A DNA stretch of 64,000 bases, taken from positions 570,318 to 634,317 of the forward strand of contig NZ_CP034882.1 in assembly GCF_005082825.1 (NCBI RefSeq). The letters are read 5' to 3'. Every line of letters begins with the position of its first letter. Position 1 is the stretch's first letter. The notes under the pieces were generated by a model. The model did no database searches, was not told where the DNA came from, and saw nothing but the letters and a program-made list of their open reading frames with translations. A program made the translations under genes and the position numbers. Origin of the DNA: Buchnera aphidicola (Brevicoryne brassicae). Its GTDB lineage: Bacteria > Pseudomonadota > Gammaproteobacteria > Enterobacterales > Enterobacteriaceae. Below, one piece after another: positions 20,360 through 60,981 of this stretch.

Positions 20360-21039
20360 ATGAAAAATATAAGTTATAATTATAAAAATTTAAAAAAAAA
20401 ATACAGAATTTTGTTAAAAACAATAATATCTCTACAAAAAAAATAAGAATTATTACAGTTACTAAAAATCAAAATATTGATATCATTGAACAATCAATAT
20501 TATTAGGAATTAAAGAGTTCGGAGAAAATTATGCAAAAGAAGGTGTTTGCAAAATACAAAAATTACAAAAATACAAAAATATTATTTGGCATTTTATTGG
20601 TAAAATACAATCTAATAAAACTAAAATAGTTGCTCAAAATTTTGATTGGTGTCAAACAATTAATACAGAAAAAATTGCACTCTTATTAAATCAATATAGA
20701 CCAAAAAATCTACTTCCCATTAACGTTTTAATTCAGATTAACGTTTCTAAAGAACCAAATAAAAATGGTATTAATATAAACGAATATCAAAAATTAGCAA
20801 AAGTAATTTCTTTAATGCCTAATCTTAATTTACGAGGAATTATGGCTATGCCTGAAATAAAAAAAAATATTATTGATAATAACATTCAATATAAAAAAAT
20901 AAAAATTATATTTAATCAATTAAAAAGAAAATATGCATCAGTAGACACTTTGTCATTAGGAACAAGTTTTGATATAAAAAAATCTTTACTTGCTGAAAGC
21001 AATATGATAAGAATTGGTCGTAATATTTTTAATAAATAA
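20360..21039 (+). CDS. yggS: PLP homeostasis protein YggS, frame broken by 1 base in an A10 tract
   Basis: YggS (PLPBP) binds pyridoxal phosphate and buffers PLP and amino acid pools. Starting at ATG 20360 the frame reads MKNISYNYKNLKKK, then meets a stop near 20443; from 20401 a second frame continues without interruption to 21039. The join falls at an A10 run (20392-20401): with A11 the protein is continuous and 226 residues long (E. coli 234). The downstream frame keeps the PLP lysine in IITVTKNQN, EFGENYAKEGV, IIWHFIGKIQSNKTK, NVLIQINVS, LRGIMAMP and SLGTSFDI. No usable start codon lies in the second frame before position 20815, so full-length product needs a +1 slip or a corrected read. 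Confidence 0.85.
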
Positions 21040-21076
21040 AATATTTTTATCAAAATTCATTAAAAAAAGTATTCCT

Positions 21077-22207
21077 ATGTTTAAATTATCTCCTATTAGT
21101 TTATATATTCATATTCCTTGGTGTTTAAAAAAATGTGGGTACTGTGATTTTCATTCATATGTCAGTCCAGAAATTATTCCTGAGAAAAAGTATATTGAAA
21201 ATTTATTAAAAGACTTTGAAAAAGATTTACATCTTATAAAAAATAGAAAAATAAATACTATTTTTATCGGTGGAGGAACACCTAGTTTATTAAAAAATAA
21301 ATCAATAAAAAGATTAATTTATGGTATTAAAGAAAGATATTTTGTTTCTCAAAATGCAGAAATTACTATAGAAGCAAATCCTAAAACAATAGAATGCAAA
21401 CGTTTTGTTCATTATAAAAATTCTGGAATTAATCGTTTTTCTTTAGGTGTTCAAACATTTGATTCAGATTTACTAAAAAAAATAGAACGCACATACGATT
21501 TAGATGAATGTATAAATGCAATTAAAGAATTGAAAAAGGTAAGTCAAAATATTAATTTAGATTTAATGTATGGTTTACCTGATCAAACTTTAGAAAATTC
21601 TTTACTAGACTTGAAATATGCTATTGGATATAATCCGTCTCATATCTCATGGTATCAGTTAACTATAGAACCTAATACTATATTTTATTCAAAAAAACTA
21701 AACATCCCTAATGATGAAATAATTTTCGAAATGTTCTCTAAAGGAGATAAGTTACTAAGAAAATCAGGATATAAAAAATATGAAATCTCTTCGTATGCAA
21801 AACATGATTACCAGTGCCAGCACAATCTTAATTATTGGAATTTTGGCGATTACATAGGAATAGGTTGCGGAGCTCATGGTAAAATTACTCAAAAAAATGG
21901 TAAAATCATTAGAACGTTTAAAAACAAAAATATAAAAAATTTTTTAAATGGAAATTATTTGAATTCTGTAAATACTGTTTCTGAAGAAGACATAGTTTTT
22001 GAATATTTTATGAATACTTTTAGGTTATATAAACCTATTTTAAAAAAAGATTTTAGAAAAAAAACTCATATAAATGAAATTAATATAAAAAAAAGAATTC
22101 AAAAAGCAATAAATAATGGATTTTTAATTAATACAACAGATTATTGGAATACAACAAAAAAAGGTAAATTTTTTTTGAATTCACTACTAAAAATCTTTTT
22201 AAAATAA
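21077..22207 (+). CDS. hemW: Heme chaperone HemW (radical SAM)
   Basis: HemW is a heme-binding radical-SAM protein related to coproporphyrinogen III dehydrogenase. The ATG at 21077 gives MFKLSPISLYIHIPWCLKKCGYCDF, aligned with the E. coli start; the reading frame is open further upstream into yggS but without homology. The cluster motif is CLKKCGYC (Cx3Cx2C). The HNLNYW signature typical of HemW, not of HemN, is present as CQHNLNYWNFGDYIGIGCGAHG. 376 residues against 378 in E. coli. It closely follows yggS. Confidence 0.96.
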   Translation: MFKLSPISLYIHIPWCLKKCGYCDFHSYVSPEIIPEKKYIENLLKDFEKDLHLIKNRKINTIFIGGGTPSLLKNKSIKRLIYGIKERYFVSQNAEITIEANPKTIECKRFVHYKNSGINRFSLGVQTFDSDLLKKIERTYDLDECINAIKELKKVSQNINLDLMYGLPDQTLENSLLDLKYAIGYNPSHISWYQLTIEPNTIFYSKKLNIPNDEIIFEMFSKGDKLLRKSGYKKYEISSYAKHDYQCQHNLNYWNFGDYIGIGCGAHGKITQKNGKIIRTFKNKNIKNFLNGNYLNSVNTVSEEDIVFEYFMNTFRLYKPILKKDFRKKTHINEINIKKRIQKAINNGFLINTTDYWNTTKKGKFFLNSLLKIFLK

Positions 22208-22217
22208 ATTAAATATA

Positions 22218-22940
22218 CTATGATATTTTTAATTGAAACATTAAATCAAAAACACGATCACCACGAAGATGTGCCTTTTTTTCAAAATCAGTTATTATAC
22301 GAGATACAGGACGTATAACAAAATCATTCGTCTTTGATAAATTTTCATAATCATCGATACAGTTAATTCTATCTAATATGTAAAAAGCATATTCTTCAGA
22401 ATCCGTCACAATATGTAATATACCATTAAATATTAGCTTTTTAGCAAGAACCTTTAAAAAATCACTTTGTAAAATCCTTCGTTTTTTATGACGTTTTTTA
22501 TTCCAAGGATCTGGAAAAAAAATTTGTACAGTTAATAAAGTGTGATCTAAAATCATAATATTAATAACTTCAATCGCATCATAATAAATTATTTTTAAGT
22601 TTTTAAGTTTATAAATATAAGCTAAATTTAAGCACGATCCTATTCCTGATTTATATACTTCTATCCCTAGAAAATTTTTATCAGGAAAATTCATTGCAGT
22701 TTGAACTAAAGATCTTCCTGAACCAAACCCAATTTCTAATATAACTGGATCAGAACTATTAAATATAGAAGAAAAATTTAATGGTTCTAGGCAAAAATCA
22801 ATTCCAATTAACGGCCAATATCTTTTAATTGCATTTAATTGAGATGTAGTAATACGACCTTTACGACATACAAAACTTCGAATTTTACGTAAAAAAATAC
22901 CATTATGGTCATATTTAGGTGTCAAAATATTATTTTTCAT
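22218..22940 (-). CDS. trmB: tRNA (guanine-N7-)-methyltransferase TrmB
   Basis: TrmB makes m7G46 in tRNA variable loops. The 240 residues match E. coli TrmB (239). SAM-binding text is EIGFGSGRSLVQTA, then NFLGIEVYKSGIGSCL; the catalytic region is IFFPDPWNKKRHKKRR, followed by HIVTDSEEYA and the C-terminal HLRGDRVFDL. It is convergent with hemW (10 bases between stops) and divergent from mutY, the E. coli arrangement of trmB and mutY. Confidence 0.96.
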   Translation of the reverse strand: MKNNILTPKYDHNGIFLRKIRSFVCRKGRITTSQLNAIKRYWPLIGIDFCLEPLNFSSIFNSSDPVILEIGFGSGRSLVQTAMNFPDKNFLGIEVYKSGIGSCLNLAYIYKLKNLKIIYYDAIEVINIMILDHTLLTVQIFFPDPWNKKRHKKRRILQSDFLKVLAKKLIFNGILHIVTDSEEYAFYILDRINCIDDYENLSKTNDFVIRPVSRIITDFEKKAHLRGDRVFDLMFQLKIS

Positions 22941-23043
22941 ATTTAGTTGCTAATTTAGTTTAAATCAAAAATTTTTAATAATTTATTCGTATAAAATTGA
23001 ATATATTCTTTAAATTTTTTATAAAAAATGGTTGCTTATTATA

Positions 23044-24105
23044 ATGACAATATATTCTTTTTCCCAATTAGTTCTAAACTGGTACCATTTTTATGGCAGA
23101 AAAGATTTACCATGGCAAAAAAACAAAACATTATACATAGTTTGGATATCTGAAATAATGTTACAACAAACTACAGTAAAATCTGTTATCCCATATTTTG
23201 AAAAATTCATATTAAATTTTCCAAACATAAAAACCTTAAGTAATGCTAAATTAGACGAAGTTTTACATTTATGGAGCGGTTTAGGATACTATAATAGAGC
23301 AAGAAACATTCATAAATCAGCTCAAATCATTCAAATAAAACATAATGGGATATTTCCTAATCAATTTATAGAAGTCATTAAACTACCGGGAATAGGAAAA
23401 TCTACAGCAGGAGCTATTTTATCTTTATCACTAAATTTTTTTTATTCTATTTTAGATGGAAATGTAAAAAGAATTTTAATTCGTTACTATGGTATTATAG
23501 GCTCTTTAAAAGATAGAACAACAGAAAAAAAATTATGGGATATCATAGAGTATATTACTCCAATACATAATAGTGCTAAATTCAATCAAGCCATGATGGA
23601 CTTAGGTTCATTAATCTGTATACGTGGAAAAGCAAAATGTAATATTTGTCCATTAAATCAAAAATGCGTTGCATATATAGAACAAAAATGGGAAAAATAC
23701 CCTTTAAAACACATCAAAAAAAAAACTCCTAAAATAATATCTTGGTTTGTTTTAATTAAATTTAAAAATAATTTTTGGATAGAAAAAAATACCAAAAAAA
23801 ACATTTGGAGAGATTTGTTTTGTTTTCCAAGTTTTGATAGTCAAAAAAAAGCATTAATCTGGTCAAAAGAAAAAAAAATAAATTTAAATAAAAGAAAAAA
23901 GATGATATCATTTTTTCATCAATTTAGTCATTTTATTTTACATATTCATCCAATTTTATTTGAATTATCATCTATTTTAGAAATTCATGAAAAAGATAAA
24001 ATGGGTCTTTGGTATGATTTAAACAATCCTCAACATATAGGATTACCTCGACCTGTAAAAAAAATACTTGAAAGTTTTAAAAAAGATATTTTTTTAAGGG
24101 GATAA
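23044..24105 (+). CDS. mutY: A/G-specific adenine glycosylase MutY
   Basis: MutY removes adenine mispaired with 8-oxoguanine. I choose the ATG at 23044 (MTIYSFSQLVLNWYHFYGRKDLPWQ); a TTG at 23032 would add four residues. Visible motifs are the catalytic glutamate region SEIMLQQT, the helix-hairpin-helix LPGIGKSTAGAILSL, the catalytic aspartate in NQAMMDLG, and the 4Fe-4S ligands C-x6-C-x2-C-x5-C in CIRGKAKCNICPLNQKC. The C-terminal NUDIX-like domain is present (FHQFSHFILHIHP). About 353 residues (E. coli 350). An in-frame A10 run at 23716-23725 is intact here. yggX follows 6 bases later. Confidence 0.96.
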   Translation: MTIYSFSQLVLNWYHFYGRKDLPWQKNKTLYIVWISEIMLQQTTVKSVIPYFEKFILNFPNIKTLSNAKLDEVLHLWSGLGYYNRARNIHKSAQIIQIKHNGIFPNQFIEVIKLPGIGKSTAGAILSLSLNFFYSILDGNVKRILIRYYGIIGSLKDRTTEKKLWDIIEYITPIHNSAKFNQAMMDLGSLICIRGKAKCNICPLNQKCVAYIEQKWEKYPLKHIKKKTPKIISWFVLIKFKNNFWIEKNTKKNIWRDLFCFPSFDSQKKALIWSKEKKINLNKRKKMISFFHQFSHFILHIHPILFELSSILEIHEKDKMGLWYDLNNPQHIGLPRPVKKILESFKKDIFLRG

Positions 24106-24111
24106 TAAAAA

Positions 24112-24357
24112 ATGCCTCGTATAATTTTTTGTACGTTTTTAGAAAAAAAATCTGAAGGTCAAGATTATCAATCGTATCCTGGTGAATTAGGAAAAAAAAT
24201 ATATAATCAAATCTCTAAAACAGCATGGAAGCAATGGATTATAAAACAAACTATTTTAATAAATGAGAAAAAACTCAATATGTGTAATATTAATGACCAA
24301 GAAGAAATAGAAAAACAAATGAAATTATTTTTATTTAAAAAAACTGAAAAAATATAA
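24112..24357 (+). CDS. yggX: Fe(2+)-trafficking protein YggX
   Basis: YggX is a small protein thought to protect Fe-S clusters from oxidation. The 81 residues (E. coli 91) begin [27 protein letters not shown] with the conserved cysteine at residue 7 and continue [29 protein letters not shown]. The last ten or so E. coli residues are missing. It forms an operon with mutY, as in E. coli, and the AGGGGAT before its start provides the ribosome site. Confidence 0.95.
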
Positions 24358-24451
24358 GATTATTTATAATAACTATTGTGAGTAATTTTTAAAAATTAAA
24401 AAACACTTTATCTTAAAATAATACTTTTTACTTTATAAAAAAAATCATACA

Positions 24452-25228
24452 GTGCTAATATTTGATTCAGGAGTAGGTGGTTTATCTATATTAAAATATA
24501 TAAAAAAAAAACTACCAAACATACATTATGTATATGTATTAGATAATGAATTTTTTCCTTATGGAAACAAAAAAAAACTTTTTATTATCGAGAGAAGTAT
24601 TAACATAATTAATATAGTAAAAAAAATTTATCCTATTCAGATAGTTTTAATTGCATGTAATACAGCAAGTACTGCTAGTTTATCTATCTTAAGAAAAAAA
24701 TTTAATTTTCCTATTATTGGCGTTCTACCTGATATTCACACAGCTAAAAAAATTACAAAAAATAACATTATTGGTTTAATAGCTACTAAAGCAACTATTA
24801 ATTCTTCTTATATCAAAAAAATAATACAAAAAAAATCTTTTAATAAAGTAATTAAAATTATAGCCACAAATAAATTAGCATTAATAGCTGAAAAAAAAAT
24901 CAGAGGTATTAAAGTTGAAAAAATAGAATTACAAAATATTTTTCAACCATGGATTAATCTTGCAGTACAGCCAGATACAATTATATTAGGCTGTACTCAT
25001 TTTTTATTATTAAAAAAAGAAATTCAAAACATTTTACATCCATCTGTTTATTTTATCGACTCAAAAAAAATAATTATATCTAAAATTAAGAAAATTTTTT
25101 ATAAAACAAAAATTGATCAAAAAATAATAAAAAATATTTTTTTCTATTCAAAAAATAATAAAAAATTACAAGAATTGCTATTTTTTTTACAAGAATACAA
25201 TTTTAATATAAAAAAAAAATTAATTTAA
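24452..25228 (+). CDS. murI: Glutamate racemase
   Basis: MurI makes D-glutamate for peptidoglycan. The only start supported in frame is the GTG at 24452 (VLIFDSGVGGLSILKYIKKK); the next in-frame stop upstream leaves no ATG. Both catalytic cysteine motifs are intact: IACNTASTAS and LGCTHFLLL, with PYGNKK and GVLPDIHTA as in the family. 258 residues against about 285 in E. coli. Two A10 runs (24502-24511 and 25210-25219) lie in frame and do not break it. Its 3' end overlaps the convergent sbcB by 9 bases. Confidence 0.93.
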   Translation: MLIFDSGVGGLSILKYIKKKLPNIHYVYVLDNEFFPYGNKKKLFIIERSINIINIVKKIYPIQIVLIACNTASTASLSILRKKFNFPIIGVLPDIHTAKKITKNNIIGLIATKATINSSYIKKIIQKKSFNKVIKIIATNKLALIAEKKIRGIKVEKIELQNIFQPWINLAVQPDTIILGCTHFLLLKKEIQNILHPSVYFIDSKKIIISKIKKIFYKTKIDQKIIKNIFFYSKNNKKLQELLFFLQEYNFNIKKKLI

Positions 25229-26659
25229 ATTAAAATTTTGATAAAATAATTTTTTATATTTTTGAAAAGTATAAACTAATATACTATTTAGTAAAATAAT
25301 ATTCTTTTTATTAAGAGAATTCTGTTTTAATAAATCTTTAATTTTATCTATATATTCGTTTAAAACACTTGGTTTTAAAACATTTAAACAATATTTAAAC
25401 CATAATTTTTTCTCATTTTTATTTAATGTCTCTAAAAAATTTCGAGCTCGATAACGAAAAAATAATGTTTTTAAACGAATATCATGAAAATTACAATTAA
25501 TTTTTTTTAATAAAAACGGTGAAGTATTTCTAATAATTTCTATAATTTTTTTATCATGTACATCAAAAAACGCATTATAAATTTGTAAATCTACATTTGA
25601 CGAAATACTAAAATCATTTTTTTTAGAAAAAATAACTTTTATTTTTTCAAAAAAATTACTATTTTTTTTTAAAAAATTAATTTTACTATTATATAAAAAA
25701 ACATCTAAATCAAGTCGACGATAATCTTCAACTCGTATAGATTGAATCGGTGCTAACATTGGACAACGATTAAGATGCAATAAAACTATTCCTAAATTAA
25801 ATAAATTTTTGATAAAATTATTATCAAAAGATATTTTTTGACATAAAAGAATTAATCTTTCAACATCTTTAAACAAATCAATAGCAATTAGTACATTACT
25901 ATTATTTTTATGCCATGCTATAGGTAATATACAGCTTAGATTGTAACGAACAGCACCAAAATGATTAGAAATATAAACAATTGGCTCAAATTTTTTTAAA
26001 TTGATTAATTTATATAACTCTTTTTTATTTCTATTTCTGAAAAAAAAGCTAAATAATTTAGGTTGCATTTTTTTAATCAATTTTGTTATTGCGATAGTTG
26101 CATATACATCCGCCATAGCATCATGTGCATTTAAATGAACAATATTATTTATTTTAGTTAAATCTGAAAGTTTAAAACTAACTAGACCTAAATTATTTTT
26201 AGGCCATTTTATACCTTTAGGTCTCAAAGCATAACATGCTCTTAATAAAGGTAATATATCCCAACGAGAATTTCCATTCTTCCAACACCATTCATAGGGA
26301 TCAAAAAAATTTCTATAAAATATATTTCTTGTAATTTCATCATCAAAATTAATGTTATTATAACCAACAATGCACGTATTTGATTGTTTAAAAATATTGA
26401 ATATTTTTTTAGAAAAAATATATTCATTAGTTCCATGTTTTTGTGTATATTGAGGAGTTATACGTGTAATTAAAACAGAACAAGGATCAGGTAAATAATC
26501 ATCTGAAGAATAACAATAAAAACATTGTGGATCTTCAATAACATTAAAATCCGTATCTGTTCTAATGCAAGCAAATTGAGCTGGCTTATCTAAAGATGTA
26601 TGTATTCCAAAAGTTTCATAATCATAAAATAAAAATGTAGAAGTTTTTTTTAAAGACAT
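25220..26659 (-). CDS. sbcB: Exodeoxyribonuclease I
   Basis: ExoI degrades single-stranded DNA 3' to 5' in recombination and mismatch repair. The 479 residues match E. coli (475). The DnaQ-like exonuclease domain opens FLFYDYETFGIHTSLDKPAQFACIRTD with the metal-binding DxE replaced as usual for the family (DYET), then GYNNINFDDEITRNIFYRNFFDPYEWCW and LNAHDAMADVYATI with the HxAxxD catalytic set. SH3-like and helical domains follow. A T9 run in the gene is in frame. Confidence 0.96.
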   Translation of the reverse strand: MSLKKTSTFLFYDYETFGIHTSLDKPAQFACIRTDTDFNVIEDPQCFYCYSSDDYLPDPCSVLITRITPQYTQKHGTNEYIFSKKIFNIFKQSNTCIVGYNNINFDDEITRNIFYRNFFDPYEWCWKNGNSRWDILPLLRACYALRPKGIKWPKNNLGLVSFKLSDLTKINNIVHLNAHDAMADVYATIAITKLIKKMQPKLFSFFFRNRNKKELYKLINLKKFEPIVYISNHFGAVRYNLSCILPIAWHKNNSNVLIAIDLFKDVERLILLCQKISFDNNFIKNLFNLGIVLLHLNRCPMLAPIQSIRVEDYRRLDLDVFLYNSKINFLKKNSNFFEKIKVIFSKKNDFSISSNVDLQIYNAFFDVHDKKIIEIIRNTSPFLLKKINCNFHDIRLKTLFFRYRARNFLETLNKNEKKLWFKYCLNVLKPSVLNEYIDKIKDLLKQNSLNKKNIILLNSILVYTFQKYKKLFYQNFNLN

Positions 26660-27072: not shown

Positions 27073-27079
27073 ATTTTTT

Positions 27080-27490: not shown

Positions 27491-28138
27491 ATGCACTGGA
27501 AAAAACAATTTATTGACTTTTGTTTTAAAAAAAAAGCTTTAAAATTTGGAACATTTACACTAAAATCAGGACGTTGCAGTCCTTATTTTTTTAACTCAGG
27601 TCTATTATCTAACGGTAAAGACATTGTCAAAATTGGTTTATTTTACGCTCATTCTATAATAGACTCAAAAATAGAATTTGACGTTTTATTTGGTCCAGCA
27701 TATAAAGGTATTCCTATCGCTGTAGCAACCTCCATAGCATTAAAAAATTACTATAATTTAAATATTCCATATACTTTTAATAGAAAAGAAAAAAAAACAT
27801 ATGGAGAAAAGGGCAATTTAGTAGGCAATATAATTCAAAACAAGAAAATTATTATTTTAGATGATGTAATAACATCAGGAACTGCAATACATCATTCTAT
27901 TAAAATTCTTGAAGAACAAAACGCACATATATCTTCTATATTTGTACTTCTAGATAGAAAAGAAAAAGGGAAAAGAGATTTATATAACGTGAATTATCTC
28001 AGTAACAAAAAAAGTTATAAAATTATTTCAATAATTACAATTAAAGATTTAATTAATTATTTACTAGAAGATAAAAAATTAAAAAAACATGTACCAGAAT
28101 TAGAAAAATATCGTCAAAAATATGGTCTTAATGAATAA
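27491..28138 (+). CDS. pyrE: Orotate phosphoribosyltransferase
   Basis: PyrE joins orotate and PRPP to make OMP in pyrimidine synthesis. The 215 residues match E. coli (213). Blocks: FGTFTLKSGRCSPYFFNSGL, GPAYKGIPIA, the flexible loop FNRKEKKTYGEKG and the PRPP motif IIILDDVITSGTA. It ends KYRQKYG as in enterics. It is convergent with dut, its E. coli neighbour locus (dut-slmA-pyrE), with slmA missing. Confidence 0.97.
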   Translation: MHWKKQFIDFCFKKKALKFGTFTLKSGRCSPYFFNSGLLSNGKDIVKIGLFYAHSIIDSKIEFDVLFGPAYKGIPIAVATSIALKNYYNLNIPYTFNRKEKKTYGEKGNLVGNIIQNKKIIILDDVITSGTAIHHSIKILEEQNAHISSIFVLLDRKEKGKRDLYNVNYLSNKKSYKIISIITIKDLINYLLEDKKLKKHVPELEKYRQKYGLNE

Positions 28139-36826: not shown

Positions 36827-37767
36827 TTAATTTTTTTCAAGTATATATAATAATTGTTTAATTAAAACATCATTATTAGAACTATATGACAATTTATTAA
36901 GATTTTTCCATTTTTTTAGCCATGTTAATTGATGTTTAGCAAGTTTTTTTGTAGCATAAATAATTTTATCAAGCATTTCCTTATGATTAATTTTATATTC
37001 AAGATATTCCCACATTTGACGATATCCTATACATCTAATAGATGGTAAATTTATATGTAAATCTCCTCTAAAAAATAACAATTCTACTTCTTCTTGAAAA
37101 CCTAGCATCAACATTTTCTTTATACGCAATTCAATACGATTATTTAACCATTCTTTACTTGGAGGTATAATTGCAAATTGAAAAATAGTATATGGTAATT
37201 TATGGTTATTATTTTTTTTTAATTCTGTTAAATTTTTACCGGAAAGATAAAACACTTCTAAAGCTCTTAATAATCTTTGAATGTCATTTTTATGAATTCG
37301 ATTAGCAGAAGTAGGATCTATTAATTCTAATTGTTTATGCAAAATTTTTTTTTGATTGTTTAATAAATATTCACGAATTTTAATATTAGACGGTGGTAAA
37401 ATAGATAATCCATTTAATAATACATTATAATAAAACATGGTTCCACCAACAAGACAAGGTATTTTCCCTAATTTAACAATATCATTAATTTCTTTTAGTA
37501 CGTCACTATAAAATTCTGCAACTGAATAATTTTCAATTGGATCTTTAATATTTAATAGACGATGAGGATGATTTGATAAATCAGAAAGACTTGGTTTTGC
37601 TGTTCCAATATCCATATTACGATAAATCAAAGCAGAATCTACACTAATTAATTCTATTGGCAAATACTCTCTAAGAGAAATAGCAAATTGAGTTTTTCCA
37701 GATGCTGTTGGTCCCATTAAAAAAAGTACTATGGGTTTTTTTTTTTATTTTTTTTGTGAAAATTCAT
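36827..37767 (-). CDS. miaA: tRNA dimethylallyltransferase MiaA, frame broken by 1 base in an A11 tract
   Basis: MiaA adds the isopentenyl group to A37 of tRNAs reading UNN codons. The frame from MGPTASGKT to the end is intact (P-loop GPTASGKT, ELISVDSALIYRNMDIGTAKP, LVGGTMFYYN, IRCIGYRQMW). The expected first beta strand is encoded just upstream as PIVLFL, but in a frame closed by a stop. An ATG at 37765-37767 overlaps the mutL stop (ATGA) and reads MNFHKKNKKK into an A11 coding run (37736-37746); A12 would join it to KPIVLFLMGP. The restored length is 313 residues against 316 in E. coli. Starting at the internal ATG (37717) would remove the strand before the P-loop, so I favour the frameshifted full gene. 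Confidence 0.85.
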
Positions 37768-44678: not shown

Positions 44679-45226
44679 ATGAAAATCAATAAAAAAAATC
44701 TTATTTGGATCGATTTAGAAATGACTGGACTTAATCCTAAAATACACCGTATCATTGAAATTGCTACATTAATTACGGATGTTAACTTAAATATCATTTC
44801 AGAGGGGCCAGTAATTCCTATATATCAAAAAAAAAACATATTTTATTAATGGATGAATGGAATTTTATAACTCATAAAAAAAATGGATTAATAAAACGTG
44901 TTCAAGATAGTTTATATAACGAACATCGAGCAGAGTTTGAAACTTTACTTTTTTTAAAACAATGGGTGCCTATTAAAGCATCTCCAATGTGCGGAAATAG
45001 TATTGCTCAAGATCGTAGATTTTTATTTAAATATATGCCAAAACTAGAAAATTATTTTCACTATAGATATATAGATGTGAGTACTTTAAAAGAATTAATT
45101 TATCGTTGGAAATGCAAAAATCAAACTAACTTTAAAAAAAGAAATAATCATACAGCATTAGAAGATATTCGTGAGTCTGTTATGGAATTAAAATTTTATA
45201 AAAAACATTTTTTTAAGTTTTCATAA
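44679..45226 (+). CDS. orn: Oligoribonuclease Orn, frame broken by 1 base in an A10 tract
   Basis: Orn finishes mRNA decay by cutting 2-5 nt RNAs to mononucleotides and is essential in E. coli. From ATG 44679 the frame reads [36 protein letters not shown] and then stops at 44847; the continuation [54 protein letters not shown] is in another frame. The junction is the A10 run at 44827-44836: A11 would give [14 protein letters not shown] and 182 residues (E. coli 181). All DEDDh catalytic residues are present (D and E in DLEMTG, later D in AQDRRFL, H and D in [10 protein letters not shown]), so the sequence has not decayed beyond this one base. Confidence 0.87.
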
Positions 45227-45510: not shown

Positions 45511-46460
45511 ATGATTTTTTACTCATCCTATAAATGGATGATATTTTTTATTTTTTCGTTTATCTTTCAAGTTCAAATTAATCAAAATAAATATTTAAAA
45601 AAAAATATTTTAAAGAAAAAAAAGTATTTTTTTTAAAAAATTTAATTGAACCAAAACACACAAAAAAAGTAATTAAAATATCTCAATCTTTCAAAGAAAT
45701 ACATAAAAAAATAAAAATTTTTAAAAAAAAACAAAAAATTTTCAGCAGTAGTTCAATTTCATCAAAAAAAATTACTATCCTAATAGACGCCGGACATGGA
45801 GGACAAGATCCAGGAGCAATTGGACACAAAGGACTTCAAGAAAAAAAAGTTAATATTGCGATAGCACTTCAACTGAAAAAACTACTAGATAATGATACAA
45901 TGTTTCGTACACTTCTAACACGTAATAATGACTCTTATCTTTCACTAAAAAAAAGAAGACAATTTTTAAAAAAAAATCAGGTAAATTTATTAATATCGAT
46001 TCATGTAGATTCCTCCAAAAAAAAATACGTATCAGGAGCATCTTTATGGATAATTTCCAATAGTAGAATGAACCGTGAAATTAATAATTATGTAAAAAGT
46101 AAAAATTCAAATATGTGTTTTTCTCAAACTATTCAAAATATTTTTAATGAAAATAAAAATGATCTATTTTTAAAAAAAACTATTCTGGATTTGCAATTTA
46201 ATAACTTACAAAAAATAGAATTTGACTTGTCTAAATATATATTTGAGCAATTCAAAAAAAAGATAAAATTACATAGAATACAATTAAATTATGCTAGTTT
46301 AGGGATATTAACTTGTATAAGCATGCCTTCCATATTAATTGAAACAGGTTTTATCACTAATTTTTTAGAAGAACAAAAATTGAGTACAACTTATTATCAA
46401 AATAAAATTGCTAATGCTATTTATTTATCTTTAAAAAATTATTTTTTACATAAATTTTAA
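45511..46460 (+). CDS. amiB: N-acetylmuramoyl-L-alanine amidase (AmiB-like), frame broken by 1 base
   Basis: This periplasmic zinc amidase splits septal peptidoglycan. The frame from ATG 45511 (preceded by AAAGGA) encodes a membrane/signal segment (MIFYSSYKWMIFFIFSFIF), then stops at 45634-45636. The second frame, open from 45591, gives a Lys-rich linker and the complete amidase_3 domain: ILIDAGHGGQDPGA, GLQEKKVNIAIA, LLTRNNDSYLSL, LLISIHVDSS and SILIETGFITN, containing the zinc His, Glu and His and the catalytic Glu. The slip can be in A9 (45597-45605), A8 (45616-45623) or T8 (45627-45634); one added base gives 316 residues. The AMIN domain and C-terminal LysM of E. coli AmiB are absent. The gene name follows gene order (orn-gly tRNA-amiB). 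Confidence 0.82.
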
Positions 46461-46916: not shown

Positions 46917-47129
46917 TTGATTCTTTATATTTTAAAAAAAAAAAAAAAAAAATACGTATATATTATACTAATATTAATAGTTATTTTTTTAAATTTTTTT
47001 AATATGAATCGAAAAAATATTTCTAAAGAAAAAAGTACACGTTTTATAGAAAAAAACAAAAATACTAATATAGTACCTCCTCAGCCAAAAGAAAAATGGA
47101 AATACATTCAAAAATTAAAACATTTATAA
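46917..47129 (+). CDS. ftsN: Miniature FtsN: membrane anchor plus essential core only
   Basis: FtsN triggers septal peptidoglycan synthesis in E. coli. This 70-residue protein has a Lys-rich N-terminus, one membrane segment (YVYIILILIVIFLNFF) and then VPPQPKEKWKYIQKLKHL at the very end. That tail aligns with E. coli FtsN LPPKPEERWRYIKELES, the EFtsN region whose Trp83, Tyr85 and Leu89 are needed for activation; all three are kept with the same spacing. The long periplasmic linker and SPOR domain are gone. Gene order (rpmE, then ftsN, hslV, hslU) equals E. coli with cytR lost. The frame shown uses TTG 46917; an ATG start at 46877 or 46880 lies in another frame joined through an A19 run (46934-46952) and would need that run to be 18. 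Confidence 0.78.
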   Translation: MILYILKKKKKKYVYIILILIVIFLNFFNMNRKNISKEKSTRFIEKNKNTNIVPPQPKEKWKYIQKLKHL

Positions 47130-50772: not shown

Positions 50773-51749
50773 TTAACAACGATCTAATGAAAAAGACATT
50801 ATTTTACTAATACTTTTTTCGTTTAAAATTAACATAATTAATCGATCTAAACCTATTGCAACTCCCGAACAACGGGGCAAACCAGAAGATAATGCTTGAA
50901 GAAAAAAACAATCTATTTTTTGCGTAGGAATATTTATGGACAAACGTTTTTTATTATCTTCAATAAAACGTCTTTTTTGTTTGCTAAAACTTGTAAGTTC
51001 ATAAAAACCATTCCCTAATTCTATTCCTTTAAAAAAAAATTCGAATCTTTCTGAAATACGAGAATCTTTTGAATTAATAGCAGCAAGACATGCTTGTTCT
51101 GCAGGAAAATGATAAACAAACAAAGGTCTTTTTTTTCCTAATCGAGGTTCTATTTTTAATGTGAAAAGCAATTGTATTAATTTATTTAAATCATCTTCAA
51201 AATCAGTCAAATGATCTAATTTTAGTTTTTTAGATATTTTACGTAATTCTAATAAATTAGTATTTAATGGATCTATGTTTAAGAATTTTATAAATATATC
51301 TTGATAAGAAATTTTATCTGATTTATGACAATTTAAAATAATTTGAAGAAATTCATCTATTTCTTTGATAAAATTTTTCATAGAACAAAAAGGTTGGTAC
51401 CATTCTAAAATAGTAAATTCTGGATTATGATAACGACCTAATTCTTCATTTCTAAAACAATGACAAATTTGATATATAGGTCCACTTTTTGCAGCTAACA
51501 AACGTTTCATATGATATTCTGGACTAGTAACTAACCATAGTTTTAATTTTTTAATATGATCAAACGAAAGAAAATCTGTTTTAAAAGATGTTAAGTGTAC
51601 ATCAGTAACAGTTGAACGAGATAAAATTGGTGTTTCTACCTCCATAATTTTTTTTTGTAAAAAAAATAAACGAATATTAGAAATAATTTGTGATCTTTTA
51701 ATCAAATTCTTAATTGAAGCATTAGGTTTCCAAAAATTTTTTTTTTCAT
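50773..51749 (-). CDS. epmA: EF-P lysine ligase EpmA, frame broken by 1 base in an A10 tract
   Basis: EpmA (PoxA/GenX) is a lysyl-tRNA synthetase paralogue that attaches beta-lysine to elongation factor P. The main frame (from TTG 51705) holds all class II motifs: EVETPILSRSTVTDVHL, SPEYHMKRLLAA, CFRNEELGRYHNPEFTILEWYQP and GVAIGLDRL. The N-terminus is encoded upstream from ATG 51747-51749, but an A10 coding run (51737-51746) puts it out of frame. With A11 the start reads MKKKNFWKPNASIKNLIKRSQI, matching E. coli SWQPSASIPNLLKRAAI, and the total becomes 325 residues, exactly the E. coli length. Confidence 0.87.
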
Positions 51750-52465: not shown

Positions 52466-53934
52466 TTATTTTATAAAATGTGAATATTTAATTATTGGTA
52501 AAGCATTTGGATAAATAATTATGGTTGCACGTACTCCTAAAGATTTATATTTTTTAATATAATTTTGATTTTTTATGTTTAAATCAGACAAATTAGTTGC
52601 AACTAACTTAATTCCACCATCATTTAAATTGTCTATTTTATAAATGTTTTTTGAATTTTTTATCTGATATTGATCGATTTCTGGATGTTCGGAAATTAAT
52701 TGAAGATAAGATCGATATAAAAACTTTTGATTTGCATATGTAGCAATTAATTTTTGAGAATTTATATCAGGTATTATCTTTTTAAAATCTTGTATCATTT
52801 TTTCTCGATTACTAGAAAAAATTAAATTTTTATTTACAATAAAAAGAGATGAATTAAGATCATTCATAAATTTTTTATCCAGATCTTGAGAAAATTTTGA
52901 ATTTTCATAATATTCTTGAAAACGCTTAATTGTATTTGTGATATTTTTCAATGAATTTAACTGATCTGAAACTTTCCATGAACTATTATCAAAAGCAAAA
53001 TCTTCATAATAAGACTGTTGAACACTTTTATTCATTCTTTCTCTAAAATTATTATCAGTTTGTGAAATATTTTTCCTACCTTCCAAATCAAAATTTTCAT
53101 CTAATCTCATAGAATTGTAAAAACTATCTTGATTATTTTTTTTTGGTGTAATAGTAAGTAGATCTGGAAAAGAACTTTGATATTGAGGATGTTTTGGATT
53201 GTTATTTAATTTATTAACAATTTTTATTTTTCCTTGACGTCGAATTTTATCCATGATTGCTCTCATAAAAACTTTTGAAGATTCAATAGTTCTTTTAAGT
53301 TCTTCGACGTGTTCAGATAAAGGAATCATAGTTCCATTTCTTGAACTAGGTCCTAGATCTTTGTCTGAAAAAAATATTTTTTGGATTGTTTTTCCATTAA
53401 AAAGTTTTATTGTTTCTTTTTTTACAGTTTTATAAGTTTCTATTACTGTATTTTTGATTTCATTTAAAATATCATGAGTTATTTTTATAAGATTAAAATT
53501 TAAAAACTTTTTATCAAAAAATTTTATTTTATTATTGAAGAAATATGAAGGGGGGTTGTTAAGAATTTTTTTTTCATTGATACATTATTAATAAGTTCAT
53601 TATTATTTAAATTTATAATATTTTTAGTATTATTTTCTAAAGAAATAAAATTTTGTATATCATATTTTTCAAATATATTCTTTTCTGTTTGTTTTTTTAA
53701 CATTTCTAATAAAAATAAAGATTTTTCACATACATTTTCTATATTTACAAGATATTTTTTATCTTTAAATACATTTAATTCTTTAGTATTATTTTTTATA
53801 GTAGAATAATTTTTGAATTTATTTATATCTCTTTCTTTTTCTAATGATTTTTTATTAGAATTTTGATAAATTTTGTTTGTTTTAATTAGAGATTTTTTTC
53901 TTATTATATCTATATTGAAAAAATTAGATGACAT
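52466..53934 (-). CDS. Unrecognised Asn/Lys-rich orphan protein, frame broken by 1 base at an A9 tract
   Basis: I do not recognise this protein. Two reading frames lie end to end: 53524-53934 (136 residues, starting MSSNFFNIDIIRKKS) and a second open without stops from about 53580 to 52466. Adding one base in the A9 coding run (53566-53574) joins them as MKKKILNNPPSYFFNNK and gives one protein of about 489 residues. It is hydrophilic, rich in Asn, Lys and Ser, with no signal peptide or clear membrane segment. The second half is the better ordered, with SEHVEELKRTIESSKVFMRAIMDKIRRQGK, a helical block ending in QYQIKNSKNIY, and a beta-rich end GVRATIIIYPNALPIIKY. Its place, between coaD and rsmJ, is where I recall Buchnera-specific yba genes being annotated; that is memory, not shown by the sequence. 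Two separate genes remain possible. Confidence 0.6.
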
Positions 53935-54837: not shown

Positions 54838-54909
54838 AAAAAACAGGAGTACATATATTTGATACATACCCCTAATTTAAAATACTATAAAAATTCTACG
54901 ATTTAAAAT

Positions 54910-56385
54910 TTAAATTAAAAACAATGCTATCCAATATAAAAAACCAGATAATAAAATTGAAATAGGTAAAGTTAACAACCATGCTAATGCAATATTTTTA
55001 ATAGTCTTAATTTGAATACCATCACCATCAATTAACATTGTACCTGCTACAGAAGATGATAAAATATGTGTAGTCGAGACAGGTATTCCTGTATAACTTG
55101 CTATTCCAATTGAAAATGAAGCTGTTACTTGTGCTGACATAGCCTGTGCATATGTCATTTGTTTTTTTCCTATTTTTTCACCGATAGTAATTACTATACG
55201 TTTCCAACCTATCATTGTTCCTATTGATAAGGACAATGCAACAACTAATATAATCCAAATTGGTGCATATTCAATTGTTTGAAGTATATTTTTTTTGCTT
55301 TTTATTAAAAAAGATCTATCTTGAGAATTCACATCAAAAGTAGTTATTGTTTGATCAATTAAATCAGAAATACATAATAAAAAATGACGCAATTGTAATC
55401 TTTTTTCTACATCTAATCTGTGATAATTAGAAATATTTTGTAATAAAATTTTAGTTTTTTTGATATTTTCGATAATGTTATAAACATGAGAATAATTAAT
55501 TGATGTATCAATTACTTTTTTATTTTCATTTTTTTTAAATATATTTTTAGAATTTTCTAAATAATATTTTTCTAATTGATTAATAGTATTTTGTGTGCAA
55601 ATAATTTCGTTTTTATTAGCATTTAAATTTATTAAAAAAGACGAAGGTACAATTCCTATAAGAACAAGCATTATTAAACCAATACCTTTTTGTCCATCAT
55701 TTGCACCATGAGCATAACTTACTCCAATAGATGATACAATTAATGCTAAACGTATTAAAAATGGTGGCTTTTTTTTTCCATCTATCTTTTCACGTTCTAG
55801 TGGTGTCATATGAATTCGATAGAAATTTTTATTAAAATTGTTTACATAATATCGTAATAAAAAAATTAAACCTCCTGCTATTATTAATCCTATAATTGGA
55901 GAAAACACAAGAGATAAAAAAATACTTTTCATTTTAGGAATATTAAGTGCATTTATTAAAGACGAGTCTGTTACTATTGCATTAGTTAATCCTATTCCAA
56001 TAATCGCTCCAATAAGAGAATGTGAACTAGATGCAGGCAAACAAAAATACCATGTAGATAAATTCCACATTATAGCTGCTAATAAAATAGAAAAAACCAT
56101 AGCAAGTGCATTTTTTGACGTACTATTTAATAGCAAATCATTTGGTAATAAATGTACAATTGCATAAGCAACAGTCAAACCTCCTAGCATCACACCTAAA
56201 AAATTAAATATACCAGACATTATAACTGCAACATTAGAAGACATTGCTCGAGTATAAATTAAAGTTGACACTGCGTTTGCTGTATCGTGAAAACCATTAA
56301 TAGCTTCATAAAATAGAACAAAAAATAAAGCTAAAAAAACAAATAAACTATGATTCAAATCAGAATAAGAAAATAAATATAGCAT
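54910..56385 (-). CDS. pitA: Low-affinity inorganic phosphate transporter PitA
   Basis: PitA imports metal-phosphate by proton symport. The 491 residues (E. coli 499) contain about 10 membrane segments and the two PiT signatures: ALFFVLFYEAINGFHDTANAVSTLIYTRAM near the N-terminus and VSYAHGANDGQKGIGLI, plus ASYTGIPVSTTHILSSSVAGTML in the second repeat. A long cytoplasmic loop with a Lys-rich coil divides the halves. Only one phosphate importer is visible in the window. Confidence 0.95.
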   Translation of the reverse strand: MLYLFSYSDLNHSLFVFLALFFVLFYEAINGFHDTANAVSTLIYTRAMSSNVAVIMSGIFNFLGVMLGGLTVAYAIVHLLPNDLLLNSTSKNALAMVFSILLAAIMWNLSTWYFCLPASSSHSLIGAIIGIGLTNAIVTDSSLINALNIPKMKSIFLSLVFSPIIGLIIAGGLIFLLRYYVNNFNKNFYRIHMTPLEREKIDGKKKPPFLIRLALIVSSIGVSYAHGANDGQKGIGLIMLVLIGIVPSSFLINLNANKNEIICTQNTINQLEKYYLENSKNIFKKNENKKVIDTSINYSHVYNIIENIKKTKILLQNISNYHRLDVEKRLQLRHFLLCISDLIDQTITTFDVNSQDRSFLIKSKKNILQTIEYAPIWIILVVALSLSIGTMIGWKRIVITIGEKIGKKQMTYAQAMSAQVTASFSIGIASYTGIPVSTTHILSSSVAGTMLIDGDGIQIKTIKNIALAWLLTLPISILLSGFLYWIALFLI

Positions 56386-56515
56386 AATCTTTAAGCCATT
56401 TTGATGAATTGAACTAAGTTTATTATCTGTGAGAAACTATGTTTAAGGAAAGTAAAATATGAATTTTATTTATAAAAATATTATTTTTAATGTTTTTATA
56501 AAAATATGATTTTTT

Positions 56516-57739
56516 TCATAAATTTTTATTTTTTTTTAGTTTAAAAGATAAAAAAATTGCTAACAATAACATTGTTATTATAAACATTAAAATTCCATAC
56601 CATTTAAAATGGAACCAAAAAAAACCACCAAACGTACCGAATACACTTGAACCTAAATAGTAAAAAAATAAATATAAAGAAGTAGCTTGAACTTTTGCAG
56701 TCTTTGTATAAGAACTAATCCAACTGCTAGCAATTGAATGTGATGCAAAAAAACCACTAGAGAAAATTATTAAACCTAAAATTATTATAAATAAGTTATC
56801 ACATTGTGTAATAAATACGCCTGTTACCATTAAACATAAAGACACTATAAGAATATTATTTCGACAATATTTTTTAATTAAAATACCAGCTTTAGGAGAA
56901 CTATATACTCCAGTTAAATAAATAGTTGACAACAATCCTATGCTAGATTGATAAAGCAAAAATGGTTCTAAAATTAAACGATAACCAATATAATTAAAGA
57001 TAGTAACAAAACTACCCATGAGTATAAAACCTATTAAAAAAAGAATAAATAATTCTGGTTTTTTTAATTGCAAATAAAAACGGTTTAAAAAACTATAAAA
57101 ATTAATAGAAATAGAACAAAAATTTTTAGATTGAGGTAAAAAATATAAAAAAAAACAAGAAGATATTAAAGAAAAAAATCCAATAATAACCAATGAAATA
57201 TTCCATGAAAATTTTTCAGCTAAAATACTGCTTAAAAGTCTTCCTGAACATCCACCTATAGTATTTCCGCTAATGTATAGTCCCATGCAAAAAGATAAAG
57301 AACTAGGGTGTATTTCTTCACTAATATATGTCATTGCTACTGCCACAACACCGCTTAAAGCTAAACCTGTTAAAGCACGAAATAAAATAATAGTCGTCCA
57401 ACTAGTCATCATTGAACATATTATTGTTAATATTGCTGCTATAAATAAAGAAGCAGACATAATTAATTTTCTACCGACTACATCCGATAAAGGTCCAGTA
57501 AATAGCATTCCTAAAGCCATCATTCCAGTTGCTGCAGATAAAGATAAGCTACTTTCTGCAGGAGTTAAATAAAATTGTTTAGAAAATACTGGTAAAATAG
57601 ATTGTACACAGTATAAAATCGAAAAAGTAGAAAAACCACCTGAAAAAAGAGCTAAAATAACTTGATTAAATTTTTTTGTATTTTTTTTTATGTATTGTTT
57701 TTTTTTTGAAAATTCTTGTTTTTCTTTTAATAAAATCAA
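56516..57739 (-). CDS. ynfM: MFS transporter, YnfM-like
   Basis: This 407-residue protein has about 12 membrane segments and follows E. coli YnfM closely: LALFSGGFSTFSILYCVQSILPVFS, LFTGPLSDVVGRKLIM (the loop 2-3 motif), GLYISGNTIGGCSGRLLSSI, FNYIGYRLILEPF and FFASHSIASSWI. YnfM is assigned to arabinose-type efflux by sequence only; its substrate is not established. One of two MFS carriers in the window, it is a good candidate for host-symbiont exchange, which is inference. Confidence 0.88.
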   Translation of the reverse strand: MILLKEKQEFSKKKQYIKKNTKKFNQVILALFSGGFSTFSILYCVQSILPVFSKQFYLTPAESSLSLSAATGMMALGMLFTGPLSDVVGRKLIMSASLFIAAILTIICSMMTSWTTIILFRALTGLALSGVVAVAMTYISEEIHPSSLSFCMGLYISGNTIGGCSGRLLSSILAEKFSWNISLVIIGFFSLISSCFFLYFLPQSKNFCSISINFYSFLNRFYLQLKKPELFILFLIGFILMGSFVTIFNYIGYRLILEPFLLYQSSIGLLSTIYLTGVYSSPKAGILIKKYCRNNILIVSLCLMVTGVFITQCDNLFIIILGLIIFSSGFFASHSIASSWISSYTKTAKVQATSLYLFFYYLGSSVFGTFGGFFWFHFKWYGILMFIITMLLLAIFLSFKLKKNKNL

Positions 57740-57769
57740 AATATAACTCCTTTTTTAGCTAAAATAATT

Positions 57770-58624
57770 TTATAAATATATATAGCCATCGTAAACATGT
57801 TTTGCAGGTCCTGTCATATAAAGAGAATGTCCAAGACCTTTCCAGGTTATAATTAATTTTCCACCTAATAAATCTACTTCAACAGTATCAGAAAGTAAGT
57901 TTTGTACAATACCTACAGCTACTGCAGCACAAGCACCACTACCACAAGAATATGTTTCACCTACATCACGTTCATATACTCTTAATTTGATATTTTTTTT
58001 ATTGATGATTTCCATAAATCCTACATTAATTCCTTTTGGAAATATAACATTTCTTTCTATATATTTACCAAGTGTATTTACAGGAGCATGTTTAATAGTT
58101 TGAACTTTAATAATACAATGAGGATTACCAATAGATACAATACTGCATATTAAACTTTCTTTAAAAAGTTTTATTGAAAAATTGTCATATGAAATATTTT
58201 TTAATAAAGTAAAATTTTGAAGTGTAAAATCAGGTTTATTCATATTAACTTTAATCATATTATTAGATATTAATTCAATAATTAAGCTTCTTTTTTTCGT
58301 ACTAACAAAAATCTTTTTTTTACTAGTTAGATTTTTTAATAATAAAAAAAGACCAAAACATCGTGCACCATTACCACATTGTTCAACTTCATTTCCATTT
58401 GAATTAAAAATTCGATAATTAAAATCAAATAGAGGATTATTTGATTTTTCTACAAGTAATAATTGATCAAAACCAATTCCAGTATATCGATCAGATAGTT
58501 TCTTTATTATTGATGATGATAAGAGAAAATCTTGATTGATGCAATTAACAACCATAAAATCATTTCCTAAACCATGCATTTTAGAAAAGTAAATTTTTTT
58601 TTTATTTTTAAAATATGAAATCAT
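57770..58624 (-). CDS. dapF: Diaminopimelate epimerase
   Basis: DapF converts LL-DAP to meso-DAP for lysine and peptidoglycan. The 284-residue protein (E. coli 274) has a slightly extended start ([10 protein letters not shown] before [15 protein letters not shown]). Both catalytic cysteines are present in EQCGNGARC and [27 protein letters not shown] and YERDVGE also match. It shows that the late DAP pathway is kept even though argD, the usual DapC enzyme, is broken in this window. Confidence 0.96.
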
Positions 58625-58807
58625 TTTATGTCCTATTTAATTATTTAATATTTTTTTAAAAAATATATTTATTTATGAAATTTAATTCATCAAAAATTAA
58701 GTAATATTAAAATTATACTAAAAATAAGATTATATAAAATACATTAATCTAATTATTTTTATCTTTTAAATTTGTTATAATATAGATAAAATTTAAGGAA
58801 ATAAAAA

Positions 58808-59152
58808 ATGAAAATACCAGATATAAGTAAAAAAGATAATTTTTATATTTTAGTAAATAATTTATTTTTGCAAATAGAAGATACTTTAAACCTGTATGAT
58901 AATGAAATTGATATAGATTATCAGATTCAGGATTATGTAATGACTATTACTTTTCAAAATAAAAGTTTAATAATTATTAACAAACAAGAATCATTGCAAC
59001 AAATTTGGTTAGCTACAACAATAAATGGATATCATTTTAATTACAAAAAAAATAAATGGATTTGTAATCGTAGTAATAAAAATTTTTGGGAGATATTTGA
59101 AAATGCATTTTTTGTTCAATCAAATAAAAAAATTATTTTTAATAAAAAATAA
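58808..59152 (+). CDS. cyaY: Frataxin homologue CyaY
   Basis: CyaY binds iron and regulates the Isc Fe-S cluster machinery. The 114 residues (E. coli 106) have an acidic first helix ([32 protein letters not shown] in pieces) and the beta-sheet motif [27 protein letters not shown], matching QEIWLA-type frataxin text. A TTTAAGGAAA ribosome site precedes it. E. coli order is hemC-cyaA-cyaY-dapF; cyaA is gone. Confidence 0.92.
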
Positions 59153-59258
59153 TTTCATTTTTATATATAAAAAAAACATAATAAAGTTTTTTTTATATTT
59201 AAAATTTAAAAATTAAAAATTTTAAGTAGAAAATTATAAAAAACGCATCTATATTAAC

Positions 59259-60215
59259 ATGAATTTTGATATGCAAAATAAAACATTAAGAATTGCTACT
59301 AGAAAAAGCCCCCTAGCCTTACAGCAAACTAAATATGTTCAAAAAAAAATACTATCTTTATATCCAGATTTAAATATAAAATTAGTACCTATTGTTACTC
59401 ATGGAGATAATATTTTAAATAAATCTCTTTCAAAAATTGGAGGAAAAGGATTATTTATAAAAGAATTAGAAATTGCACTTCTTGAAAACAAAGCTGATAT
59501 TGCAATTCATTCTATGAAAGACCTTCCAGTAAATATTACAAAAGAACTATGTTTAGTTAGTATATGCAAAAGAGGAAATCCTTTAGATACATTAGTGTCT
59601 AATAATTATAAATCAATTAATCAATTACCTAAAGGAGCAATAGTTGGTACATCAAGTTTAAGAAGACAATGTCAATTAATCACTCATAGACCTGATTTAA
59701 TTATCTCTCCTTTAAGAGGGAATGTAGAAACAAGAATAGCAAAGTTAGATCAAGGGAAATACGATGCAATTATTCTCGCTACTGAAGGATTAAATAGATT
59801 AAGTTTACAACATCGAATTACTCAAATTATACCTGCTGAATTATCTCTTCCTTCATGTGGACAAGGTGCAATTGGAATTCAATCAAGAATACATGATAAA
59901 AAAGTAATATTTTTTTTATCTCGTCTTAATCATATAAATACTTTTATTGAAATAAATGCAGAAAGAGCATTTTGTAGAAAATTAAATGCAGGATGTCAAA
60001 TTCCTATAGGCAGTTATGCTATTATAAAAGAAAATAAAATTTGGTTAAGAGGAGTAATAGGTTCACCTAATGGTAAAACTATATTAAAAGGAGAAAGAAT
60101 AGGTTGGTATAATACAGGAGAAAAAATGGGGTATGAACTTGCTGAAGAATTATTAAACAATGGAGCTAAAAATATTCTTAATAATCTACATTTGAAACAA
60201 TCGTATTATATATAA
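59259..60215 (+). CDS. hemC: Hydroxymethylbilane synthase
   Basis: HemC polymerises four porphobilinogens. The 318 residues match E. coli (313). Blocks: [72 protein letters not shown] and the dipyrromethane cofactor cysteine in [12 protein letters not shown]. An alternative ATG four codons in (59271) is possible. hemD follows 8 bases later, so the pair is an operon. Confidence 0.97.
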
Positions 60216-60223
60216 AAATACTT

Positions 60224-60981
60224 ATGAAAATACTAGTAATGCGACCTTCTCCTGAAGGAGAAGATTTGGTAAATAATTTAAAAAAAATAGGCATACATGC
60301 TTGGCATTTTTCTTTTTTTGATTTTTATTCTAGTACTAGTTTAATAAACTTATCAAATAAAGTTAATGATTTATATGAATCAAATATAATTATTATTTTT
60401 TCTAAAAAATCTATTTATTATACAAATTTATATTTAAAAAATCATAATTTACAATGGCCTTTTGATGCAGAATATTATACTGTAGGTCAAAGTACGGCTC
60501 TTTCTCTTTACAAACATGTAAAAAAAAAATTATTTTTCCCAAAAAACAAGAAGATAGTGAAAATTTATTAATTCTATTACATAAATATTTGTTAAAAAAG
60601 CACAAAATAGTTTTATTACAAGGCGAAAATGGACGTAAATTGGTAGAAAAAAACTTAAAAAAAAAAGGTTTTAATGTTTCTACTATAGAATGTTATAAGC
60701 GAATTTTAAAAAATTTAAATATCGAAAAAGAAGAAAAATTATGGTGTTTATATAAAATAAATACTTTAGTAGTAACCAGTAGCGAAATTTTATATCACAT
60801 AAAAAACATCATTTGTAGTATTAATGAAAATAATTGGCTATTAACATGTAAAATTTTTGTAATTAGTAGAAGATTGTTTAAAATAGCGAAAATTTTAGGA
60901 TGGAAAGATATAGTAATTTCAAATTGTGCTAGTAATGAATGTTTGATAAAGGTAATTAAAAAAGAAAAATTTGGTAATTAG
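60224..60981 (+). CDS. hemD: Uroporphyrinogen-III synthase HemD, frame broken by 1 base in an A10 tract
   Basis: HemD closes and inverts ring D of the tetrapyrrole. The first frame (MKILVMRPSPEGEDLVNNLKKIGIHAWHF to HVKKK) and the second (GKRALIL-like KKHKIVLLQGENGRKLVEKNLKKKGFNVSTIECYKR, TLVVTSSEILYHI, VISRRLFKIAKILGWKDI) align with the two halves of E. coli HemD. They join at an A10 run (60520-60529): A11 gives HVKKKIIFPKKQEDSENLLILL, in register with E. coli KILYPQDREISEVLLQL. The restored length is 252 residues (E. coli 246). The second frame is open well before its first start codon, so this is one gene, not two. Confidence 0.86.

Follow-up and report, generated by a model that had tools for sequence, protein, structure and literature searches.

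Does a conserved bacterial gene that lacks a single base in a long run of adenines still make its protein? This question is raised by a 64,000-nucleotide stretch of the genome of Buchnera aphidicola from the aphid Brevicoryne brassicae (the window, G000:C1:570318-634317; the genome, G000, comprises 656,629 bases in three contigs), in which seven coding sequences are split into two frames at a poly(A) tract. The host is identified by the leucine plasmid: the initial 2.5 kb of a 7.9-kb contig of G000 matched plasmid CP113407.1 of Buchnera from this aphid at 100.0% identity over 99%, and contig C3 gave no plasmid match. From the comparison of Buchnera genomes described below, we consider it probable that these are functional genes with one-base shifts in coding poly(A) tracts of at least nine bases, which are rescued by slippage of RNA polymerase.

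Seven coding poly(A) tracts of the window are one base short

A first-pass annotation of the window had proposed seven such tracts, all with the same sign, and each of them was found where it had been placed. They are given here with the coding strand; -1 denotes a gene that is one base short of the joined frame.

yggS, 20360..21039, + strand: two overlapping frames, A10 at 20392-20401, net -1; TIGR00044 on the 3' open reading frame (ORF)
miaA, 36827..37767, - strand: coding A11 (T11 at 37736-37746), net -1 near the N-terminus; TIGR00174
orn, 44679..45226, + strand: A10 at 44827-44836, net -1 at about residue 51
amiB, 45511..46460, + strand: signal-peptide ORF 45511-45636 and amidase ORF 45591-46460 (Amidase_3), with A9 at 45597-45605 in their overlap
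epmA, 50773..51749, - strand: ATG followed by a coding A10 (T10 at 51737-51746); NF006828
yba3 (orphan gene), 52466..53934, - strand: N-terminal ORF 53524-53934 and C-terminal ORF 52466-53584, joined at A9 (T9 at 53566-53574)
hemD, 60224..60981, + strand: 5' ORF 60224-60571 and 3' ORF 60466-60981, A10 at 60520-60529, net -1

Apart from the orphan, the halves matched the families YggS, MiaA, oligoribonuclease, AmiB-like amidase, EpmA and uroporphyrinogen-III synthase. Shifts were called by frameshift-aware protein-to-DNA alignment against intact relatives, which yielded a net -1 in yggS, miaA, orn and hemD. For epmA, amiB and Yba3 no call was kept by the aligner, because the shift lies too close to the N-terminus or the references spanned one half only; in epmA and Yba3 the missing base was instead evident from the analysis of starts and junctions. 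In amiB the signal-peptide ORF (the signal peptide being judged by eye) and the amidase ORF likewise stand in a -1 relation, and the exact position of the shift is not fixed because the linker is too variable and unconstrained. A single-base shift in a long coding A tract is thus present with one sign at all seven sites, six of which are well supported, while amiB is weaker.

The shifts recur across the genus

The genus set comprised 36 genomes, of which the 34 that encode Yba3 (G000 included) were used for comparison; two genomes without a Yba3 match were left out. The comparison covered the two regions of each genome that harbor the seven genes.

The junction of the two Yba3 frames (the name was taken from database entry P0003) was exactly A9 in 34 of 34 genomes, and the frames stood in a -1 relation in 29 of them. 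The relation was different in G010, G016, G032 and G035 (G016 also has no start of the N-terminal part near the tract), and in G015 a single open frame of 508 aa runs across the tract. As the tract had been chosen by its context (nine As preceded by G or TCAT), the absence of length changes follows by construction; independently of that choice, each of the 29 genomes with the -1 relation has an A9 where the two ORFs overlap. The flanking sequence is fast-changing (about nine parsimony changes per column). Since A9 tracts occur at about 0.42 per kilobase of strand, it is not by chance that each of the short overlaps contains one.

hemD was -1 in 22 of 33 genomes, +1 in three and in frame in eight, with at least ten changes on the tree; in G005 the -1 lies at an adjacent A9, and hemD of G020 is decayed. 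A further gene, intact in the window, carries a shift elsewhere in the genus:

pyrE, 27491..28138, + strand: intact here; A9 at 27527-27535 is the site shifted by -1 in 14 of 34 genomes

The pyrE shift required three parsimony changes and is found in 13 members of a 14-genome clade (G012 is in frame) and in G011. The remaining genes were more scattered. A -1 at the same site was obtained for yggS in 7 of 28 genomes. Six of 32 genomes (G000, G003, G006, G011, G020 and G034) had a -1 close to the N-terminus of miaA, and G027 had a +1. In epmA, no in-frame ATG, GTG or TTG was found in G000, G003 and G027, whereas the other 22 of the 25 genomes with the motif have an in-frame start; the startless state is common to all three members of the window's clade. 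The orn shift was found at the window's site only in G000 and in G025, which is distant on the tree. A second hot tract of orn near residue 155 (A10-A16; L033-L051 and L053-L066 in region A) was shifted in 6 of 34 genomes.

The same shift is therefore common to diverged species in yba3, hemD, pyrE, yggS and epmA, and several of the shifts are old. The genus-wide sharing in Yba3, hemD and pyrE had been missed by the first-pass annotation and is the stronger finding. Two classes may be distinguished: sporadic shifts, for the most part in tracts of at least ten As (yggS, miaA, orn, epmA and, outside the window, tsaB, though apbE is at an A9), and old, shared shifts at A9 or A10 (yba3, hemD, pyrE).

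The positions of start codons bear on the possibility that the two halves are separate proteins or that the downstream half starts internally. Most Yba3 halves are indeed recorded as separate hypothetical proteins; one depositor already joins both frames. However, the first start of the Yba3 C frame lies 26-180 codons past the tract with no conserved place (G015 aside), even though relatives align from residues 1-31 of this 372-residue frame, and G015 encodes the whole protein in one frame. None of the 14 pyrE genes with the shift has an ATG, GTG or TTG in frame ahead of the tract, and the first one past it is at least 22 codons on in 13 of them (one codon on in G009); a functional PyrE in these species thus most likely requires that the frames are joined. 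The downstream frame of yggS has no start for 143 codons, and epmA of the window's clade has none at all. In favor of internal initiation, the P-loop of miaA contains an ATG in frame (in 5 of 28 genomes, including the window's, no in-frame start was found upstream of this ATG, and all five have A10 or A11), the downstream frame of hemD has a TTG about 20 codons past the tract, and in orn an ATG in frame follows directly on the tract. In orn such a start would presumably cost the first exonuclease motif. As a general explanation, separate or internally started proteins are very unlikely.

The downstream frames are constrained

If the shifted genes were young pseudogenes being lost, the sequence past the tract should evolve without constraint. 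The ratio of nonsynonymous to synonymous substitution rates (dN/dS) was computed for 33 pairs of genomes, some of which possibly share a shift through independent events. Past the tract, pairs sharing a shift gave values of 0.05-0.48 overall: 0.18-0.48 for hemD, 0.19-0.30 for yggS, 0.23-0.28 for epmA, 0.05-0.23 for pyrE and 0.20-0.38 for the Yba3 C frame. For miaA, 0.22-0.32 was obtained, with 0.34 for G011-G034 (which have a different start) and 0.26 for G000-G027 (which have opposite calls), and for orn, measured against in-frame relatives, 0.25 and 0.30. Intact controls (seven genes, two pairs each) gave 0.07-0.29, and decayed epmA genes 0.61 and 0.91. The downstream frames are thus under purifying selection, and the genes look functional.

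Genuine decay is found in the window as well, and it has a different appearance:

argD, 2286..3504, - strand: +1 shift at T7 (about 2988) plus an in-frame stop; decaying

This was the sole shift called in the first 20 kb of the window (with two references). The argD ortholog of G003 carries eight shifts, and the initial 8 kb of the G027 stretch gave no argD match; the window's clade thus seems to be losing this gene. epmA of G006 and G033 are further cases of such decay. A pseudogene origin of the seven shifts could appeal to argD, to some relatives in which yggS and epmA are decayed or were not detected, and to the accessible text of PMC3164680, which lists homopolymeric frameshifts as a separate kind of inactivation with 1-18 per Buchnera genome. 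Given that selection is purifying downstream of the tract where species have a shift in common, and given the spread of the pyrE shift over a 14-genome clade, we regard ongoing loss as a highly improbable explanation.

Shifts depend on tract length, strand and sign

The two regions contained 42 gene families, of which 36 were aligned (the others being a merged hflK/hflC, the separate Yba3 N-part, two families with overlapping ORFs and two small ones without a window member). Run lengths were tabulated for 29 families in 34 genomes, omitting amiB, the Yba3 orphan, mutL, hslU and yqgF (N-termini messy or misannotated) and two families clipped by stretch ends. The names hslU, yqgF and hflK/hflC, as well as mutY and hslV, are those we take these genes to bear. 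Eight of 1186 gene-genome alignments were discarded because the gene was decayed or the score low; 17 shifts were located off runs. As the genomes are related and not independent, p values are descriptive.

Shifts per coding run increased steeply with the length of the A run, from 6/5522 at A6-8 to 38/657 at A9, 23/162 at A10, 10/35 at A11 and 8/13 at A12 or longer. Coding A runs of at least nine bases were shifted in 79 of 867 cases and T runs of this length in 0 of 85 (Fisher, p = 7e-4). At A runs of at least nine bases the ratio of -1 to +1 was 67:12 (28:9 without hemD and pyrE). With these two genes removed, the counts were 2/579 at A9, 18/148 at A10, 10/35 at A11, 7/12 at A12 or longer and 0/83 at T runs of at least nine (p = 0.04). 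Because a sequencing error is blind to the coding strand, the preference for A points to a rescue after transcription, although outside hemD and pyrE this pointer is weak.

Beyond the two regions, five other 20-kb regions of eight genomes (82 families) yielded 23 calls, several of them in decaying genes, with nine at A runs and two at T runs of at least nine; no shifted site in these regions was common to several of the eight genomes. The five places sampled in G000 itself (100 kb in total) yielded two clean -1 shifts in gene interiors at A tracts, in apbE (A9) and tsaB (A12), while the other calls fell at gene ends, off runs or in one messy locus. apbE lies near L106 5351 (- strand) and tsaB near L107 16379 (+ strand), and in G023 both are -1 at A12 tracts at different positions.

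The first-pass annotation had left two explanations, slippage and undercalled tracts in intact genes. Shared sites, purifying selection and the length and strand pattern favor the first, whereas the second fared poorly. Homopolymers are classic sites of error, all seven sites have one sign, and the assembly is imperfect, with an N run and a missing palindrome on the plasmid. However, when pLeu of this genome was compared with CP113407.1 (isolate BSU_Bre_2018), nine of nine runs of at least nine bases were equal in length, one of them a run of ten (the plasmid has no run above ten); the differences consisted of four substitutions and palindromes (Ns or sequence absent in this assembly), without any homopolymer indel. 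The truncated 125-aa orn ORF was 100% identical in four contigs, the longest of 647,534 bases as compared to 645,850 here; one of the four is clearly another assembly, while some may be records of this genome. No identical intact copy of orn was found among the 120 matches listed of 8000, and a relative (P0040, 124 aa, 81% identity) appears to be truncated likewise. The N-terminal ORF of Yba3 was identical in two contigs and differed by one residue in three, with the same frame in both variants. Together with the same sites being shifted in many genomes and the lack of shifts at 85 long T runs, this makes undercalling unlikely, and we give it very little weight.

Slippage of RNA polymerase or ribosomal frameshifting

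That the frames are joined by slippage and the full-length proteins made is our inference from the shifted sites and their recurrence among species, from the constraint on the downstream frames and from the dependence on tract length and strand. RNA polymerase would slip on the A tract when the RNA:DNA hybrid re-pairs out of register, mostly adding one base, so that a fraction of the mRNA would gain the joined frame and yield the full-length protein. Because the rescue would occur in the RNA, selection would seldom tolerate a shift except at slippery A runs, and would continue to constrain the two halves. Slippage would account for the threshold near the length of the nine-base hybrid, for the excess of -1 shifts and for stimulatory elements not being evident. 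The 67:12 excess of -1 over +1 fits the excess of one-base insertions at A/T runs of Buchnera RNA reported in the accessible part of PMC5574713.

The main rival is -1 frameshifting by the ribosome on A-rich slippery codons (A AAA AAA or A AAA AAG), with a uniform mRNA. Such a heptamer is present in any A run of at least nine bases in every phase, the pyrE tract contains A AAA AAG, the preference for A is also compatible with lysine codons, and ribosomal frameshifting is proposed for lipA, fabB and bioA of another Buchnera in the available portion of PMC7245037. On the other hand, A7-A8 runs, many of which contain the heptamer, were shifted in only 4 of 2844 cases. The Yba3 tract is an uninterrupted run of nine As in 34 genomes, which is moderate evidence as AAG makes up just 6% of lysine codons here. 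No Shine-Dalgarno-like motif was found upstream of the tract in the 34 Yba3 loci, and there is little structure downstream of it (mean z of -0.4 against mononucleotide shuffles with pseudoknots excluded, 2 of 34 below -2); six sites of G000 gave structure z values of -1.05 to +1.32. Ribosomal frameshifting therefore appears improbable as the principal mechanism, though it deserves more weight than any other competitor of slippage.

Several observations speak against rescue by polymerase slippage. Without hemD and pyrE the contrast between A and T runs is weak, with 2/579 at A9 as compared to 0/66 at T9, and 35/195 at A runs as compared to 0/17 at T runs of at least ten bases (p = 0.08). Two -1 calls were obtained at T9 and T10 in the five other regions, both near the N-termini of G001 genes, and argD demonstrates that +1 shifts at T runs occur here too. 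The 5' part of hemD gave a dN/dS of 0.73 for G000 and G003 (other hemD 5' values were 0.17-0.44), and 12 of the 14 pyrE genes with the shift have an ATT, a rare start, in frame ahead of the tract. Slippage as an efficient rescue is also opposed by the statement in PMC5574713 that no transcription error restored a frame, and by the run preference of the E. coli enzyme. E. coli RNA polymerase inserts preferentially at T over A runs in one reporter study (PMC6260861, available in part); therefore, the absence of shifts at T runs is not predicted by simple slippage.

Relation to known systems and possible consequences

Rescue of shifted genes by slippage on poly(A) was reportedly described for Buchnera and Blochmannia by Tamas and colleagues in PNAS in 2008. 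In the accessible text of the papers citing that study (PMC3017870, PMC5009743), 12-50% corrected transcripts are given for cell-wall and histidine genes. Frameshifts of ancient origin that Blochmannia has maintained were described by Wernegreen et al. (2010, MBE), as related in the accessible part of PMC3017870. Slippage rescue in endosymbionts is thus already known (Tamas 2008; Wernegreen 2010). As in the system of Tamas et al., the shifts are of one base and lie within A tracts, in endosymbiont genes that are otherwise constrained, but transcripts were measured in that study, whereas yggS, miaA, orn, epmA, hemD, yba3 and pyrE were identified here by comparison only. The Blochmannia frameshifts are likewise common to several species without decay; here, however, the genus is Buchnera, and one site is exactly A9 in 34 of 34 genomes. 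Transcriptional slippage in Thermus dnaX and Shigella mxiE, according to the available excerpts, also uses a nine-base slippery run, while the present sites are known from sequence. No report of the hemD, pyrE or yba3 shifts or of fixed A9 sites in Buchnera was found in the searchable literature, which omits most subscription papers.

The conservation of the Yba3 tract allows a more speculative reading, which we put forward tentatively and consider doubtful: some Buchnera A9 tracts might be fixed, selected slippage switches, by which Yba3, reported to be highly expressed, would be made in a short and a joined form in nearly every Buchnera that has it, and pyrE and hemD would be throttled alike. 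The model of the Yba3 C-terminal domain (52466-53584, - strand) resembles type III effectors of the EspG/VirA kind with a middling Z score. This likeness lacks sequence support: no EspG family was found among the best 25 of 37 weak Pfam matches of Yba3 (31 members), and no EspG/VirA chain was obtained in a profile search of PDB sequences. Foldseek gave no match at E <= 0.001. A scan of genome contigs with the orphan matched a single unrelated archaeal contig and nothing else. Were the likeness real, such a switch would govern a protein that a mutualist may direct at its host.

If the shifted genes are indeed rescued, Buchnera pseudogene counts and metabolic models would need correction (pyrimidine, haem, tRNA modification, EF-P), and a one-base frameshift could be retained while an entire clade of symbionts diversified. 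As the exact sites are given here, long-read cDNA and peptide data of the ordinary kind from aphids can address the question.

Other runs in the window

The -1-at-poly(A) pattern is not universal in the window, as argD with its +1 at T7 indicates. The first-pass annotation had also reported in-frame A10 runs in murI. This did not hold for the second of them (25210-25219), which was itself called -1 about seven residues before the end of the gene; as compared to relatives, it alters the tail of the protein only. The longest run of the window, A19 at 46934-46952, lies within a short ORF, and in G003 the apparently corresponding ORF contains Ns.

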